From the NCBI GenBank assembly GCA_025363635.1, contig JANYDL010000019.1, positions 1 to 64,000 of the forward strand: 64,000 nucleotides of DNA, given 5' to 3'. The notes under the pieces were generated by a model. It was not told the DNA's origin. It searched no databases and was given only the letters and a program-made list of their open reading frames with translations. Below, piece by piece: positions 40,571-47,554 of the stretch. Source of the stretch: Actinomycetes bacterium (lineage in GTDB: Bacteria; Actinomycetota; Actinomycetes; Nanopelagicales; Nanopelagicaceae). Every line of letters starts with the position of its first letter. Position 1 is the first letter of the stretch. The translations under genes and the position numbers were made by a program.

Positions 40571-40852
40571 TTAATGGGTACCGTCATCAGCTGCAGAAAA
40601 TTTGGCCAGTGTTTCGCTCAAGCGTTTGACCGCATCAATATCTGAAACTTGTCGATAGTGGCTGAGCGCAATTGAAATATCTTGAAAGTCAGCAGAGAGT
40701 GAAGCGCATCTTTCACAAATTGCTATATGCGCTTGTAGTCGGTCGATTTCAACTTGACTCAATGGCATTGCGGGATCCCTGTCGAGGTAATGACTTAGAT
40801 GGCTTCTTACCCAACGACATTGCCTCATTGACATAACTTCAGAAAGTTTCAT
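40571..40852 (-). CDS. Anti-sigma factor with zinc finger (zf-HC2)
   Basis: 93 residues with no transmembrane helix. The zinc-binding anti-sigma motif is 'CRWVRSHLSHYLDRD' followed by 'LQAHIAICERCASL' (HxxxCxxC). Its ATG overlaps the stop of the sigma-factor gene (ATGA), so the two are made in equal amounts. It most likely holds that sigma factor inactive and releases it on a redox or zinc signal. Confidence 0.85.
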   Translation of the reverse strand: MKLSEVMSMRQCRWVRSHLSHYLDRDPAMPLSQVEIDRLQAHIAICERCASLSADFQDISIALSHYRQVSDIDAVKRLSETLAKFSAADDGTH

Positions 40853-41412
40853 TCCCGAACCGCTCTTTCGCTGATCATTACAAGTTGTTTTCTAACCTTT
40901 GCTCTTGCTCGACTTCTGCGAGACATTATTGTGCCGATTGGCACATCAAGTATCTCAGCCGCTTCGACATATGAGAATCCCTCGACATCAACCAGAATCA
41001 GAACCGACCTGAATTCTTCAGGCAGATTGTTGACTGCTTCGAGCAAAAATGGATCCGTGATTCCTAACAAGACTTCATCTTCCGCAGAGAGGGGAAGCTC
41101 TGCATTGAATGCCGGCTTACTATCAACTATAAGATTCCAATCGCCTATGTAACTTGGCTTCTTCTTGCGCCATGTACTGTGAGATGTATTTCGAAGAATC
41201 GTGAGCAACCAAGCACGTGGACTCATACCGTCGAAATTTTCTATGGCACCAAAGGCCTTAATTAGCGTTTCCTGAACAAGATCCTCTGCATCTATGGAAT
41301 TACCCGCGAGTGATCTCGCAACACGAAGTAAAATTGGAATCTCTGGTTCCACATATTTGCGAAATCTCTCCGTCCTCCTAAATTGCAAAGGTGATGGATC
41401 TTGAATGGTCAC
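40849..41412 (-). CDS. ECF sigma factor
   Basis: 187 residues from GTG 41412. Region 2: 'PILLRVARSLAGNSIDAEDLVQETLIKAFGAIENF', with 'SPRAWLLTILRNTSHSTWRKKK'. Region 4: 'LPEEFRSVLILVDVEGFSYVEAAEILDVPIGTIMSRRSRAR'. Such factors direct RNA polymerase to stress promoters. It is between a membrane-protein gene and its own anti-sigma, all reading the same way. No target promoter is certain here. Confidence 0.93.
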   Translation of the reverse strand: MTIQDPSPLQFRRTERFRKYVEPEIPILLRVARSLAGNSIDAEDLVQETLIKAFGAIENFDGMSPRAWLLTILRNTSHSTWRKKKPSYIGDWNLIVDSKPAFNAELPLSAEDEVLLGITDPFLLEAVNNLPEEFRSVLILVDVEGFSYVEAAEILDVPIGTIMSRRSRARAKVRKQLVMISERAVRE

Positions 41413-42749: not shown

Positions 42750-43966
42750 CGTTTCACCAATTTCGCCAGTCGATGAAATGCAGTATACGAAGCGATAATG
42801 TCAGCGTCGACAGATCCAAAGATCTTTGAGGCAGCAAGTTCATTTTCAGAAACGACGTGACCAATACCTGCGACATTTAGCCTTGCTGAAACATCTGTGC
42901 GCCTATCTCCTGTGACAATAACTCGTCGCCCACTGAGGGGAGAAAAATCAACATCCCAGAGCCACGAAGTGTCTTTTCCGTCTTGTGTATTCGCATTCAC
43001 GACTAGCAATACCGATGCTGGACCCTCGGCGCTCGTCGCCAAAGTCTCCTTCCAACTCGCGGGATTCTTCGAGAGCAACAATCGGAAGCGCGTTGGCCCT
43101 ATAACGACTTTGCCAAATCGACCATCCACGCTGGAAATCCTTGCTATTGCATCCGCAGCGTCATCAAGTTCAATATCGAAAAAAGTCGAAGCCACAACTG
43201 CACGGGCAGAATTTGAAATCGCAGCTTTACCTGGAATTCCACTCACTACTTTTACTTTCTCTTTTTTTGGACCTTTGAGAGTATCCCTTGTAAATTTCCA
43301 ATCCGGCTGAGGTCGGGCAAAACCACATGCACACGAAAAATCGTCACCTTTCTCGCTCCACCAGAGCACTTCTCCACATTCGGGGCAGGTCGAAGCATCA
43401 AGGTGCCCAAGTGAACCACTACTAAACCAAATGACGCGCTTCCAATGTTGGGAGGCCCAGACAACAAAGGGGTCATCGGCGTCAGCCAAAATTACCGCTT
43501 TCTTTGGGAGGCCCACGAGCGCCTCTTTCCATTTTTGTGCAACAACTCTCACTTCGGAAAGGCGATCAAGTTGGTCTCGTCCCAAATTCAAAAGCACTAC
43601 AAGTTCGGGAGAAGTTTGCTTTATCGCCCATGGGATCACCATTTCATCGACCTCAAGGACCGCAACGGTTGCAGAGTTATTCTGACTTAAAGCCGTTGCA
43701 ATTCCAGCAAAAAGATTAGCGCCCGTGAAGTTCGTAACCGTTTGATGGGATGTCTTTATCGCTGCGTCTATCAAAGCAGTACTAGTCGTTTTGCCGTTTG
43801 TACCAGAAACCAAAACTACGCGCCGTTTACGAGAAAGAATTTTTGCTGCATTTGGTTGAAGTTTAAGAATCATCCGGCCAGTTAACATCACGCCAGAACC
43901 TCGACGTGTAATTCGCGATAGCCAGCCTAGGCCATGCGCAAAAAAAATTATTAAACGCAATTTCAT
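42746..43966 (-). CDS. murT: Lipid II isoglutaminyl synthase, Mur-ligase subunit MurT
   Basis: 406 residues. Mur-ligase ATP site 'VLVSGTNGKTTSTALIDAA' (near residue 51), then a four-Cys zinc ribbon insert: 'CPECGEVLWW' and 'FSCACGFARP', which is diagnostic of MurT. The C-terminal Mur domain follows. Together with GatD it amidates lipid II on the inner face of the membrane. It lies five bases after the carbonic anhydrase gene. Confidence 0.94.
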   Translation of the reverse strand: MKLRLIIFFAHGLGWLSRITRRGSGVMLTGRMILKLQPNAAKILSRKRRVVLVSGTNGKTTSTALIDAAIKTSHQTVTNFTGANLFAGIATALSQNNSATVAVLEVDEMVIPWAIKQTSPELVVLLNLGRDQLDRLSEVRVVAQKWKEALVGLPKKAVILADADDPFVVWASQHWKRVIWFSSGSLGHLDASTCPECGEVLWWSEKGDDFSCACGFARPQPDWKFTRDTLKGPKKEKVKVVSGIPGKAAISNSARAVVASTFFDIELDDAADAIARISSVDGRFGKVVIGPTRFRLLLSKNPASWKETLATSAEGPASVLLVVNANTQDGKDTSWLWDVDFSPLSGRRVIVTGDRRTDVSARLNVAGIGHVVSENELAASKIFGSVDADIIASYTAFHRLAKLVKR

Positions 43967-43970
43967 AAGG

Positions 43971-44492
43971 CTAGATGTCTTGGGTTTCTAATACACCCGT
44001 CGCAACATTATAAATCGCCGCAGCGATAACAACGCCTTTTCGAAGTAACGGATAAGACCGCAAACGTATGACATCTATTGCGAGCGCCGCAGTCTGATCT
44101 GCGACGGTGCGAAATTCTAAACTTCGGGTGTCAACGCCATATTGATCAAGAATGGTCTGATGAATGACGGACTCCTCGCTCTGCGCCATTCTGCAATCGG
44201 TGTGGGGCATTACTAGAATCCGCTCGACCCCCAGTAAATAGGTCGCCAAAACTAGCGTCCTCAGCACGTCTTCGGTGACCCTCGCTCCGGCATTTCGAAG
44301 AATCTTTGCATCCCCTGATTTCATTCCGACCACAGCCAGAGGGCTAATTCTCGAATCCATACAAGTCACGATCGCTAAACGCTGGACAGCCACACCGGTG
44401 AGCTCACTACCTTGAAAATTCCTTGCAAAAGTTTGATTTGCCTCCAAAATGTCGGAAAAGGAGTCCCGCGGGAAAGCAAGGTGTTCTGACAT
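43971..44492 (-). CDS. Beta-carbonic anhydrase
   Basis: 173 residues. Zinc ligands are in 'VTCMDSRISP' (Cys and the Asp-Arg dyad) and 'MPHTDCRMA' (His-x2-Cys). It interconverts CO2 and bicarbonate. 'GDAKILRNAGARVTEDVLR' is typical of the small actinobacterial clade. It is upstream of murT in the same direction; the link is probably only shared transcription. Confidence 0.93.
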   Translation of the reverse strand: MSEHLAFPRDSFSDILEANQTFARNFQGSELTGVAVQRLAIVTCMDSRISPLAVVGMKSGDAKILRNAGARVTEDVLRTLVLATYLLGVERILVMPHTDCRMAQSEESVIHQTILDQYGVDTRSLEFRTVADQTAALAIDVIRLRSYPLLRKGVVIAAAIYNVATGVLETQDI

Positions 44493-44529
44493 GCGGCAAG
44501 TCTATCGAGAGAATAAATCCAAGTTTGGC

Positions 44530-44558
44530 TGTAACGAATGGAGCGCCAACATCGTTTT
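44530..44558 (+). promoter_or_regulatory. ECF-type promoter candidate upstream of secreted His-rich protein
   Basis: TGTAAC (44530-44535) and CGTTTT (44553-44558) are 17 bases apart, 37 bases before the GTG start. ECF-controlled promoters typically have AAC in the -35 and CGT in the -10 element, as here. It would fit autoregulation by the ECF sigma factor encoded 400 bases downstream. The pairing is inference. Confidence 0.4.
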
Positions 44559-44594
44559 ACTAGATAGAACTTCCCTATCTTGAAGGAGATTTCC

Positions 44595-44936
44595 GTGAAT
44601 AAAAAACATCTCGCTCTCATTCTCACCGGTTGCCTGGCCCTATCCAGTTCAACCTTTGCGATGGCGGAGGGGAAGTCTAAGGAAGCGCGGAGCAAGCATC
44701 ATGCCAACGGAAAGGTGCTTGCTCCATCCACCCCTATAACTTTGAGCGCTGCCAGCGGCATTGTCAGATTAGATACCTCGACAGTTGTTCCTTTAGTCCA
44801 CTTTGATACCTCCACCGCCACCACCCATACTGATATGAATTCAGATGATGGCGGTGTGGAGACTGATCATCATGGGAACGGAGAGCATGGGAACGGGAAT
44901 CATGAGACGAGTAATTCCTCTCATGATGACGACTAA
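44595..44936 (+). CDS. Small exported His/Asp-rich protein
   Basis: 113 residues from GTG 44595 (AAGGAG nine bases upstream). A signal peptide ends near AMA-EGK. The mature part is short, with a basic start, then a Thr/Ser-rich stretch, and a C-terminal run with many His, Asp, Gly and Asn (HHGNGEHGNGNHE..., ending SHDDD), a likely metal-binding tail. No family recognised. It lies 56 bases before an ECF sigma gene and may be its target or signal. Confidence 0.7.
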   Translation: MNKKHLALILTGCLALSSSTFAMAEGKSKEARSKHHANGKVLAPSTPITLSAASGIVRLDTSTVVPLVHFDTSTATTHTDMNSDDGGVETDHHGNGEHGNGNHETSNSSHDDD

Positions 44937-44992
44937 ACTCACTTAGAGAACTATTGCTAGAAGCGCTGGACTAGCACTTTCATTGGGAGTTG

Positions 44993-45565
44993 ATGCACGC
45001 AACAGAGAATTCTTCCCCTGGGCTAAGTGGAACTACCACTTCAGCTCAGTCGAACGAGCCCAATTACGACCTATTAGTAGAGGAGGCGGTCCGTGGTAGC
45101 GATACAGCATTCACCATCCTCTGGCGACACCATCAACCTCGCATGGTCAGATACTTGGCAACTTTTACAAATGAGCCTGAAGACCTTTGTTCTGAAGCGT
45201 GGATCAAAATTGCTCACTCCATCAAGACTTTCCACGGCGACGCCTCAGCTTTTAAAGGTTGGATTTACACGATTGCTCGAAACTGCGCCATTGATCTGGC
45301 ACGCAAGAAATCTCGCGCAGGAATTGCAGTTGAACTTAGCGAGGAAGATTGGGTCGGTGAGAATTCTTCAGTCGTGGAAATCATGGATGTAATTAGAAGG
45401 CTCCCACAGGAATACGCGGAAATTATTTTGCTTCGAATTGTGGCCGACCTCGATGTCAACGACGTTGCCGAAATTACTGGAAAGACCCCGAGCAATGTTC
45501 GCGTCATGACTCACAGAGGGTTAAAGCAACTCAATGAAATGCTTCAAGCTGGTGATGCTAAATGA
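44993..45565 (+). CDS. ECF sigma factor (second)
   Basis: 190 residues. Region 2: 'DTAFTILWRHHQPRMVRYLA', 'EPEDLCSEAWIKIAHSI', 'AFKGWIYTIARNCAIDLARKK'. Region 4: 'LPQEYAEIILLRIVADLDVNDVAEITGKTPSNVRVMTHRGL' with the helix-turn-helix. ATG 44993 has GGGAG upstream; the TTG just before is less likely. The next gene overlaps its stop by 4 bases. Unlike the other ECF sigma here, it has no zf-HC2 partner. Confidence 0.92.
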   Translation: MHATENSSPGLSGTTTSAQSNEPNYDLLVEEAVRGSDTAFTILWRHHQPRMVRYLATFTNEPEDLCSEAWIKIAHSIKTFHGDASAFKGWIYTIARNCAIDLARKKSRAGIAVELSEEDWVGENSSVVEIMDVIRRLPQEYAEIILLRIVADLDVNDVAEITGKTPSNVRVMTHRGLKQLNEMLQAGDAK

Positions 45566-46284
45566 GCAACTTTGAAGACTTCTCTATGGAGCAGAGCGAA
45601 GAATTGATCGCGCAGTTGAAAACCAACTCCCCTTCTGGATTCACGCAATTACATAGTTCTTTGAAATTGCTTTCGCATGTATCCGAGCTTTCACCTGTAG
45701 CGATGCCTCCGGTTCTTCCTTCAGCGGTTGAGCAACCTATTGAATCGATAACTTTACATCGACCTCGCACGCATCGATCTGCGATTACATCTCTCATAGT
45801 TACGGCCGTTCTGGCATCTGCCTCTTTTGCTGCGGCGGGTGTGACCGGACGTGGTCCCGCCGTTATTGTTGATGCAGCGAAAAAAAGTGGCGAAATTGTT
45901 GCGAATGTCATAGGAACTGTGGGGAATACTCTTACGGGAAATAGTGACAAACCTTCAGCTCCAAGTGGAATTGAGAAGAAGAGTTCCGTGCCAACATCAC
46001 CGAATAGTTCTGCTCCCAATAGACCTTCAATAAATCCACAAACTCAACAAAGTCCGACTCCAAGTTCAGATGAGAACGATCAAAATGCAACTCAAACAGA
46101 TTCACAGGATGGGCAATCCGATCACCCAAGCGTCACCGCAGATCCATCTCCAACACCTAATCAAAGACCGTCTCATACTTCTTTACCAACCCATGGCACC
46201 GAAATTGGAGGCGTTGTCTTACCGCCAGTTACAAATACCCAATCAGGAGAAGATTCCCAAGACTCTGAAAACGAATCCGATTAA
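45562..46284 (+). CDS. Probable transmembrane anti-sigma factor with low-complexity exterior
   Basis: 240 residues: a cytoplasmic part of about 70, one transmembrane helix (about 72-96), and about 140 extracytoplasmic residues dominated by Pro, Ser, Thr, Gln, Asn and Asp (for instance SPTPSSDENDQNATQTDSQD). Its ATG overlaps the sigma stop (ATGA), the standard sign of a sigma/anti-sigma pair. No zinc motif is present. The outside part could be a surface stalk or sensor. The assignment comes from position and topology. Confidence 0.65.
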   Translation: MSNFEDFSMEQSEELIAQLKTNSPSGFTQLHSSLKLLSHVSELSPVAMPPVLPSAVEQPIESITLHRPRTHRSAITSLIVTAVLASASFAAAGVTGRGPAVIVDAAKKSGEIVANVIGTVGNTLTGNSDKPSAPSGIEKKSSVPTSPNSSAPNRPSINPQTQQSPTPSSDENDQNATQTDSQDGQSDHPSVTADPSPTPNQRPSHTSLPTHGTEIGGVVLPPVTNTQSGEDSQDSENESD

Positions 46285-46288
46285 ATAA

Positions 46289-46396
46289 CTACTTATTCTT
46301 CTCTTTCTTTTCCTGCTTCTTTGCCCGCTTCTCTTTCAAAGAAAGTTTTGCTTCTTTCTTTGTATTAGCGTTGCTCTTCTGCTCTTTATTGGCCAT
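46289..46396 (-). CDS. 35-residue Lys-rich small protein
   Basis: ATG 46396 (AAAGG nine bases upstream) to TAG 46289. The product starts MANKEQKSNANTKKEAKLSL and continues with 'KEKRAKKQEKKEKNK'. More than a third of residues are Lys; predicted as one long basic helix. Similar short 'KLSLKEKRA.K' proteins occur in actinobacteria, but I cannot name the family or function. It may bind RNA or ribosomes by charge. Convergent with the anti-sigma gene. Confidence 0.6.
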   Translation of the reverse strand: MANKEQKSNANTKKEAKLSLKEKRAKKQEKKEKNK

Positions 46397-46489
46397 ATTT
46401 GTGCCTTTCTTCAGGGGCTGCATATCCAGACTAACGAGGGCTGAAGTCTAATAGAAAAGGTACTCTCTCCTTGCACTGGAAGGAGTTAA

Positions 46490-47224
46490 GTGATCAATTT
46501 TTCGATTGCCTTACTCGCTGGGCTCTTGGTGGGAACGATTAACGGAATGGCCGGCGGGGCCTCGATTATCTCCTATCCCATCTTGTTAGCCCTGGGAGTT
46601 CCGCCCGTCAATGCGGCGGTAACAAACGCGCTGGGGGTATCGAGTGCAAATTTCTTCGCAATTCGCTCTGGTCCTCACACCTTTCGGAAATTATTTTATA
46701 CTTTTAAAACCCATATCCTTCTCTCTGTTGTGTTCGCAATCATTGGAGCCTTTTTACTGCTTACAATGCCCCCTAAAACTTTTGAGAAGATTGTTCCATT
46801 CCTTCTCTTTGGCGCCACGACGATGATGCTGCTACCTAAGAAACCTCGACATCCGCACCAGAATAAAGTTGCAGAGCGCATAGGTATCGGAGCGAGTGGC
46901 CTTTACTGCGGATACTTCGGTCCAGGTCAAGGCGTCATGGTCGTCGCCACACTTGCAAGAAATCGGGAAGAAGACGCCCCCGCATTAAACGCAGCAAAAA
47001 ATATGATCGTGGGCGTTACGAGTTTGGCATCCAACGTGATTTATATTTTTAGCGGACGCATCTATTGGTCCCTCGCTCTTGCGCTCTTAATCGGTTCAAG
47101 CTTCGGAGGGACGCTAGGAGGAAAGTGGGCCTCCCGAATGTCTCCAATTTTCTACAAAACACTTGTGGTCATTGTCGGCTTTGGCGCCTCTATTTGGCTC
47201 TTTGTCCGCTACTTCGGTTCATGA
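46490..47224 (+). CDS. TauE/SafE-family sulfite/organosulfur exporter-like permease
   Basis: 244 residues from GTG 46490 (AAGGAG). About eight transmembrane helices. The family's twin motifs are seen: 'GLLVGTINGMAGGASIISYP' in the first half and 'GLYCGYFGPGQGVMVV' in the second. It moves anions such as sulfite or sulfoacetate; the substrate is not shown. No sulfur-metabolism gene is adjacent. Confidence 0.9.
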   Translation: MINFSIALLAGLLVGTINGMAGGASIISYPILLALGVPPVNAAVTNALGVSSANFFAIRSGPHTFRKLFYTFKTHILLSVVFAIIGAFLLLTMPPKTFEKIVPFLLFGATTMMLLPKKPRHPHQNKVAERIGIGASGLYCGYFGPGQGVMVVATLARNREEDAPALNAAKNMIVGVTSLASNVIYIFSGRIYWSLALALLIGSSFGGTLGGKWASRMSPIFYKTLVVIVGFGASIWLFVRYFGS

Positions 47225-47285
47225 CCCCGAACTAGACGAGAGCCCCTTTCGGAATTGGGTTTACGCCTCACCTCGCAGAATTTCC

Positions 47286-47300
47286 GTCTCTTAAAGAGAC
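47286..47300 (+). terminator. Possible terminator after the TauE gene
   Basis: GTCTC-TTAAA-GAGAC makes a 5-bp stem; 'ggggttttaaaa' follows. The stem is short, so confidence is low. The rest of 47225-47482 has no convincing gene or RNA. Confidence 0.3.
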
Positions 47301-47482
47301 TGAAGGGGTTTTAAAAGGAAGAGACTCCTAAAAACTCAACTTCGTAATAGTCGCCATCAAAGAATCTATCGGCAAAATTAAAGGCACGGCGATCGGAAAT
47401 TCAGGTCGATTGGCGGTCGAGACGATTCTGCACTCTTACGGGCTGCACGCGTAGAAGTGTTTCGAGCGTAAGTGAAAACTGG

Positions 47483-47554
47483 AGCCCCCCGTCAGGATTG
47501 AACTGACGACCTTCCGCTTACAAGGCGGATGCTCTACCACTGAGCTAGGGAGGC
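47483..47554 (-). tRNA. tRNA-Thr (anticodon TGT)
   Basis: A 72-nt cloverleaf on the minus strand: acceptor GCCTCCC with GGGGGGC, D arm GCTC/GAGC, anticodon stem TCCGC/GCGGA with loop CTTGTAA (anticodon TGT), T arm GTCAG-TTCAATC-CTGAC, discriminator T. CCA is not encoded. Confidence 0.95.

Follow-up and report, generated by a model that had tools for sequence, protein, structure and literature searches.

A conserved ECF sigma factor cassette with a putative membrane-anchored anti-sigma partner and a lineage-specific exported protein in small-genome actinobacteria

The cassette described here, located at 44530-46284 of a 64-kb stretch of actinobacterial DNA (hereafter, the window), is probably a self-activating extracytoplasmic function (ECF) sigma factor/membrane anti-sigma system that controls secreted, disordered, and acidic proteins. 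The promoter, the exported gene, the sigma factor, and the coupled partner were all found exactly where the original prediction had placed them. The cassette is a real, conserved, and coherent system that belongs to a known kind and whose exported first gene is specific to the lineage; the role of the partner as an anti-sigma factor, and those of the secreted proteins, are ones that we infer. The type of switch is known, and this version and its secreted targets seem to be undescribed; no description of such a composition was found at the level of titles and abstract openings. The lineage supplies what such systems usually lack, namely a promoter that is conserved and a small set of predicted targets, all of them secreted, of low complexity, and acidic. 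It offers an entry point to what small-genome actinobacteria place on their surface and to how a stalk-like anti-sigma factor could sense that surface.

Organization of the cassette and its promoter

The features of the cassette are collected in Table 1. The promoter comprises the -35 element TGTAAC at 44530-44535, followed after 17 bases by CGTTTT at 44553-44558, and an AAGGAG sequence lies a few bases 5' of the GTG of the exported gene. The pattern TGTAAC-N17-CGTTNT has a single occurrence in the 64-kb window and was found in none of 100 dinucleotide shuffles. The ECF-like promoter originally proposed is thus present, and TGTAAC-N17-CGTT precedes the exported gene in 11 of 11 genus operons, with a spacer of exactly 17 bases in every case and a distance from the -10 element to the start codon of 32-66 bases. 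Recurrence of the same promoter at this exact spacing lends support to the earlier suggestion that the cassette is self-activated; positive autoregulation of the sigma factor through this promoter is proposed from comparative data.

TABLE 1. Positions of the cassette features in the window
Feature	Position	Strand	Description or basis
ECF-type promoter, TGTAAC-N17-CGTTTT	44530..44558	+	36 bases 5' of the exported gene
Exported protein gene, 113 aa, GTG start	44595..44936	+	Signal peptide, two DTxT repeats, His/Asp tail
Two DTST repeat units	44772..44816	+	Protein residues 60-63 and 71-74, 11 residues apart
ECF sigma factor, 190 aa	44993..45565	+	Pfam/NCBIfam domains, tree
Partner protein, 240 aa	45562..46284	+	Start overlaps the sigma factor stop as ATGA
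Partner cytoplasmic part, putative zinc-less anti-sigma domain	45562..45771	+	Residues 1-70; conserved FSxExSEELIxxLK...PPxLPS block
Partner single transmembrane helix	45778..45846	+	Approximately residues 73-95; sequence and alignment
Partner helix just outside the membrane	45850..45939	+	Residues 97-126; conserved GxGPAPIVxxAHxTAKFVKxVAGxVTKAVTG
Partner exterior, fast-evolving, Pro/Ser/Thr/Gln-rich, acidic end	45940..46284	+	Alignment; dN/dS

Several neighbouring genes were also recorded. A beta-carbonic-anhydrase-like gene (43971-44492, minus strand; PF00484, 173 aa) is oriented divergently to the cassette in all 11 genus genomes that carry the operon and has kept the CxDxR and HxxC metal-site residues; that it lies so near to genes encoding Asp-rich secreted proteins is curious. 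On the far side, a 35-residue, very Lys-rich open reading frame (46289-46396, minus strand; MANKEQKSNANTKKEAKLSLKEKRAKKQEKKEKNK) is convergent with the partner gene and lies 4 bases from its stop. Nine of the 11 sigma-positive genomes have a near-identical frame; the stretches of the other two, G005 and G017, end before its position. A second ECF sigma factor with a zinc-finger (zf-HC2) anti-sigma factor, closest to the SigH/RsrA type and ordinary in its make-up, lies four kb away (40571-41412, minus strand). No Rfam families were found in 43500-47500.

Distribution of the cassette, the sigma factor family, and the partner

A search for the trio in relatives revealed its co-occurrence in 11 of the 21 genus genomes: the sigma factor and the partner were detected in the same 11, and the exported gene lies upstream of the sigma factor in all of them. 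The partner of G017 is split between two contigs. Given that nearly complete genomes are found among the ten that are negative for the sigma factor, the presence of the cassette in the genus is patchy. At the level of the order, the partner was identified in 13 of 296 genomes, comprising the same 11 together with G222 and G259 of another genus; 7 of the 20 matching genomes were marginal (E 0.001-0.006) and were left out of this count. Across a phylum-wide spread of 396 genomes, an acceptable partner match was obtained in the window's own genome only, G601 (E 9e-4, 46 positions, internal stop) having been left out. Order and promoter are kept in G222 of the outlying genus, in which the carbonic-anhydrase-like gene is followed by an exported acidic gene, the sigma factor, and the partner, and TGTAAC-N17-CGTTTT was read by eye 28 bases before the ATG of the exported gene. 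The relatives are referred to below as aquatic because one of them is a lake metagenome assembly (Lac Pavin).

The sigma factor contains domains for region 2 (Sigma70_r2, PF04542; 1.4e-14, 54.1 bits) and region 4 (r4_2, PF08281; 1.7e-11, 44 bits) and no region 3, which, with its length of 190 residues, identifies it as an ECF sigma factor. It is strongly constrained, with dN/dS values of 0.05, 0.02, and 0.05 in three close pairs. BldN was its best NCBIfam match (TIGR02952, 78.1 bits), and the best match to a solved structure was 6dxo_A (2.3e-18), which we take to be the BldN-RsbN entry. Membership of BldN was rejected: the score of 78.1 bits compares with a curated cut-off of 206.45 bits for TIGR02952 and with about 204-264 bits at the 30 BldN-type loci retrieved, and the tree places the sigma factor elsewhere. 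In this tree of 74 rows (midpoint root, long branches flagged), the 12 sigma factors of the cassette and 28 class relatives formed one clade with support of 100/99, and the 30 BldN-type sigma factors formed a separate clade with support of 84/94.

Related sigma factors were detected in 44 of the 118 class genomes searched, the window's own genome and G013 being among the 44. A downstream single-pass partner of the same build was recognized at 26 of 28 class loci, and an ATGA overlap of the two genes at 18 of 28, both judged by eye. The alignment of these partners, which uses 15 of the 28 loci, gave the membrane-proximal motif LPxPxQxxAH, and its likeness to the GPAPIVxxAH of the genus is weak (hhalign probability 22, E 0.001). 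The TGTAAC-CGTT promoter was not enriched upstream of the class loci (2 of 28 versus a shuffle mean of 1.2), and a crude look found the exported first gene mostly absent there. Given that the sigma/partner pair is class-wide, but the class loci are mostly without the other two elements, the exported first gene and the TGTAAC-CGTT promoter look, on sequence comparison, like an innovation of this lineage within a widespread pair. At one class locus (L174, G749:C139), two ECF sigma factor matches lie ∼1.8 kb apart, the upstream one being followed by a partner-like gene, which suggests a duplication of the pair.

A coupled, single-helix protein without a zinc motif had been predicted, and the partner matched this description. 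Its start overlaps the sigma factor stop, and one hydrophobic helix near residues 73-95 precedes ∼145 residues rich in Pro, Ser, Thr, Gln, and Asn. The partner contains no Cys and thus no Hx3Cx2C zinc anti-sigma motif, and there was no zf-HC2 match. No Pfam or NCBIfam family was found for the full-length partner of the window, no DUF5667 was detected among 12 members cut at residue 126, and none of the Pfam/NCBIfam models fits the partners of this ECF family convincingly. In close pairs, dN/dS values of 0.04, 0.10, and 0.16 were determined for residues 1-126; the exterior gave 0.19 and 0.15, where the corresponding values for residues 1-126 were 0.04 and 0.10. A model of these 126 residues placed a helix at 68-94 with low confidence (pLDDT 44.7). 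Comparison with RsbN-like proteins gave an hhalign probability of 1.4, a value to be read in light of the fast divergence of such domains. The RsbN-like alignment was built from 12 of the 30 BldN-type loci, since several of the 30 partners, most of the Streptomyces-like ones included, had been shortened by the start rule. Given the lack of detectable RsbN-like similarity, the putative anti-sigma role of the partner rests on gene coupling and topology. Four PDB profile matches (E 4e-5 to 0.26), mostly to designed or helical proteins and lying on the membrane and membrane-proximal helices, were discarded as compositional. A VIA-align comparison returned common helical arrangements only (best Z 6.1) and was set aside; that its list was without anti-sigma factors excludes nothing.

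The partner might instead be a wall-spanning surface protein that is made with the sigma factor and is not an anti-sigma factor, in which case the sigma factor would be governed by its own level or by a distant regulator. The fast sequence turnover of the partner would suit such a protein, as would the lack of a recognized anti-sigma domain and of similarity to RsbN-like proteins. However, the partner start and sigma factor stop overlap or nearly touch in relatives, all 11 sigma factors detected in the genus are accompanied by the partner, and the related sigma factors are followed at nearly all class loci (26 of 28, by eye) by a coupled single-pass protein. This explanation is considered improbable, and an anti-sigma role is the preferred reading of the partner.

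The exported protein and the candidate regulon

The exported protein (44595-44936) has a signal-peptide-like start, and dN/dS values of 0.31 and 0.22 were obtained for its gene in two of three close pairs, the pair G015/G018 being without usable dS. Given this protein-level constraint, the small gene is regarded as real. A DTxT repeat is common to the genus: each of the 11 orthologues carries 2-5 units, at a spacing that is mostly 11 residues in one group of orthologues and 9 in another; a variable Asp/Glu-rich region lies C-terminal of the repeats. The G222 protein is without the repeat and retains the acidic tail alone. The cassette proteins are only mildly acidic (pI 4.1-6.5 within the genus), and they and the partner exterior are often acidic-ended across species (e.g. 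ESD, DDD, and EDD). No solved-structure (PDB) match was found for the exported protein, and Pfam families that matched one or two of the 11 members only (E 0.008-0.08) were dropped. A model of low confidence, based on a 2-row alignment (mean pLDDT 46.6), was nearly structureless with one short helix, as would be expected of a disordered protein, although this is no proof of disorder.

As the first gene behind the promoter, the exported protein gene is a likely target of the sigma factor, in agreement with the original prediction. Candidate targets elsewhere were identified from the distribution of the promoter pattern. Within the genus, TGTAAC-N17-CGTTNTA has 11 occurrences, which are spread over seven sigma-positive genomes; the 10 sigma-negative genomes have none. 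Six of the 11 sites belong to the trio, and three of the other five are situated shortly before genes for small exported acidic proteins (G010, G012, and G013). Looser patterns add the same arrangement in G007 and G011, and second acidic targets are present in 5 of the 11 sigma-positive genomes. Altogether, 32 distinct sites were examined, of which 10 are trio sites and 5 of the other 22 precede small exported acidic proteins; this tally leaves out 2 of the 32 looser-pattern sites, which have no locus, and the trio site of G017. At L086, a site whose -10 element is poor lies 97 bases before an RTX-like exported protein, which was not scored as a target. With a reversed-pattern control in the same genomes, none of 21 sites preceded an acidic exported protein, and four preceded membrane or exported proteins with 3-4% Asp+Glu. 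Sites outside the trio were no more numerous than control sites (5 versus 6 reversed-pattern sites in sigma-positive genomes); at the level of sequence, the regulon signal lies in the position and conservation of the sites, not in their number. In the genome of the window itself, no second target was identified: none of its other sites (C53, C16, and C100) lies before an exported gene.

The five second targets are 135-151 residues long as scored, with 14-25% Asp+Glu, 0-1.6% Lys+Arg, a predicted pI of 2.5-3.2, and 0 or 1 His; those of G010, G012, and G013 have a strongly acidic second half. Given that four of the five are mutually orthologous, they represent one conserved and one independent case. 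A regulon of low-complexity acidic secreted proteins in the relatives is plausible. Three exported-protein genes in a row were also observed at L068 (G010:C14, 1030-2870, minus strand), with TGTAAC-N17-CGTT-type sites before the outer two; one of these sites precedes a 203-residue exported protein of helical-looking composition.

The exported protein could also act as a feedback ligand that touches the partner exterior, such that the system would gauge how far its own product is exported or occupies the wall. Consistent with this, the exported gene comes first in the operon of each of the 11 genus members and of G222, and the exported protein and the partner exterior are both of low complexity and often acidic-ended. 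However, on a crude look, most of the class-wide relatives have no exported gene at this position. Moreover, the DTxT repeats are absent from G222, and so no docking motif is conserved across both genera. We regard a ligand function as doubtful and retain the exported protein as a likely target.

The His-Asp tail noticed at the outset is real in this species, in which the mature exported protein has 9 His, but it is not conserved: there is no invariant His column among the 11 genus orthologues, the G222 protein has no His after its signal part, and no Cys occurs in the mature protein of any of the 11. A metal-responsive cassette of the CnrYXH type, in which the His/Asp protein would sense or soak up metal and the zinc-less partner would act as the anti-sigma factor, would suit this tail and would have a precedent in CnrY, which excerpts of PMC7406223 likewise place outside the zinc class of anti-sigma factors, but it is most unlikely given this lack of conserved His and Cys, the near absence of His from the five further targets, and the absence of a metal transporter family from the neighbours examined, where a downstream TauE-like gene is present in only 6 of 11. 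Of the envelope or metal response that had been proposed, the envelope-facing system stands and the metal response does not.

Proposed mechanism and comparison with known systems

The preferred reading of the cassette as a self-activating sigma/anti-sigma switch can be set out as a minimal scheme. In the resting state, the zinc-less N-terminal domain of the coupled single-pass partner would keep the sigma factor bound at the membrane. A change in the envelope that acts on the disordered exterior or on the conserved membrane-proximal helix would then release the sigma factor, probably by regulated proteolysis, as in RsdA. Comparative evidence suggests that the free sigma factor would recognize TGTAAC-N17-CGTT and transcribe its own operon, with the exported DTxT-repeat protein gene first; similar evidence from some relatives points to transcription of further small exported acidic proteins elsewhere. 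Outside the membrane, the secreted proteins would probably contribute to the wall or the surface as a component that is hydrophilic and, for the most part, polyanionic. A bolder version holds that an old actinobacterial sigma/anti-sigma pair was converted, in small-genome aquatic actinobacteria, into a switch dedicated to a coat of secreted proteins that are disordered and acidic, with the head-of-operon repeat protein also serving as a ligand of the anti-sigma stalk, so that the cell measures and refills its own polyanionic wall layer; as a whole, this version is speculative and on present evidence unlikely.

The initial view that no described system resembles the cassette was too strong, since parallels with RsdA and with BldN/RsbN are known and the sigma factor's own family, with similar partners, extends to 44 of 118 class genomes. 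This unnamed family of actinobacterial ECF sigma factors, the single-pass partners of which are rich in Pro, Ser, and Thr, falls in the same clade and has a coupled partner at 26 of its 28 loci; it differs in that TGTAAC-CGTT is not enriched and, on a crude look, most of its loci have no exported first gene. The CnrYXH system of Cupriavidus has an anti-sigma factor outside the zinc class, like the putative one of the cassette, and an extracytoplasmic third protein, its sensor being CnrX. By contrast, the exported protein of the cassette is without conserved metal ligands.

The promoter of the SigD-RsdA system differs from TGTAAC-N17-CGTT, and we know of no exported protein at the head of its operon. 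In the Mycobacteriales, SigD-RsdA shares with the cassette an ECF sigma factor and a membrane-anchored anti-sigma factor (putative in the cassette) with a long disordered exterior, and the features of its own to which the cassette is likened are an envelope stress response and activation by stepwise proteolysis (excerpts of PMC11175481). The same excerpts describe RsdA of corynebacteria as a membrane-anchored, zinc-less anti-sigma factor with a disordered exterior of ∼160 residues that is cleaved by MarP and Rip1, and propose, by comparison with RsgI, that the disordered part senses the wall (PMC11175481). The topology and composition of the partner fit an RsdA-like build, the 126-residue model (pLDDT 44.7) covering none of the exterior, and no Pfam link between the partner and RsdA was found.

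The nearest parallel in output is with Streptomyces, in which BldN with RsbN controls the secreted chaplins and rodlins (excerpt of PMC4255298). The BldN promoter, given as CGTAAC-N16-CGTTGA in part of PMC2375139, resembles the TGTAAC-N17-CGTT of the cassette. Small secreted proteins as output and a fast-diverging, membrane-anchored anti-sigma factor would be common to both systems, as far as the excerpted sources describe them (PMC4255298, PMC8103513, and PMC7406223). They differ in the exterior, which is DUF5667-like at 30 of the 30 BldN-type loci fetched and is without such a domain in the partner of the cassette; PF18915 matched 7 of 12 RsbN-like proteins. Given that the partner has no detectable RsbN-like similarity, the cassette is taken not as a member of the BldN-RsbN system but, by analogy, as one that would work like it.
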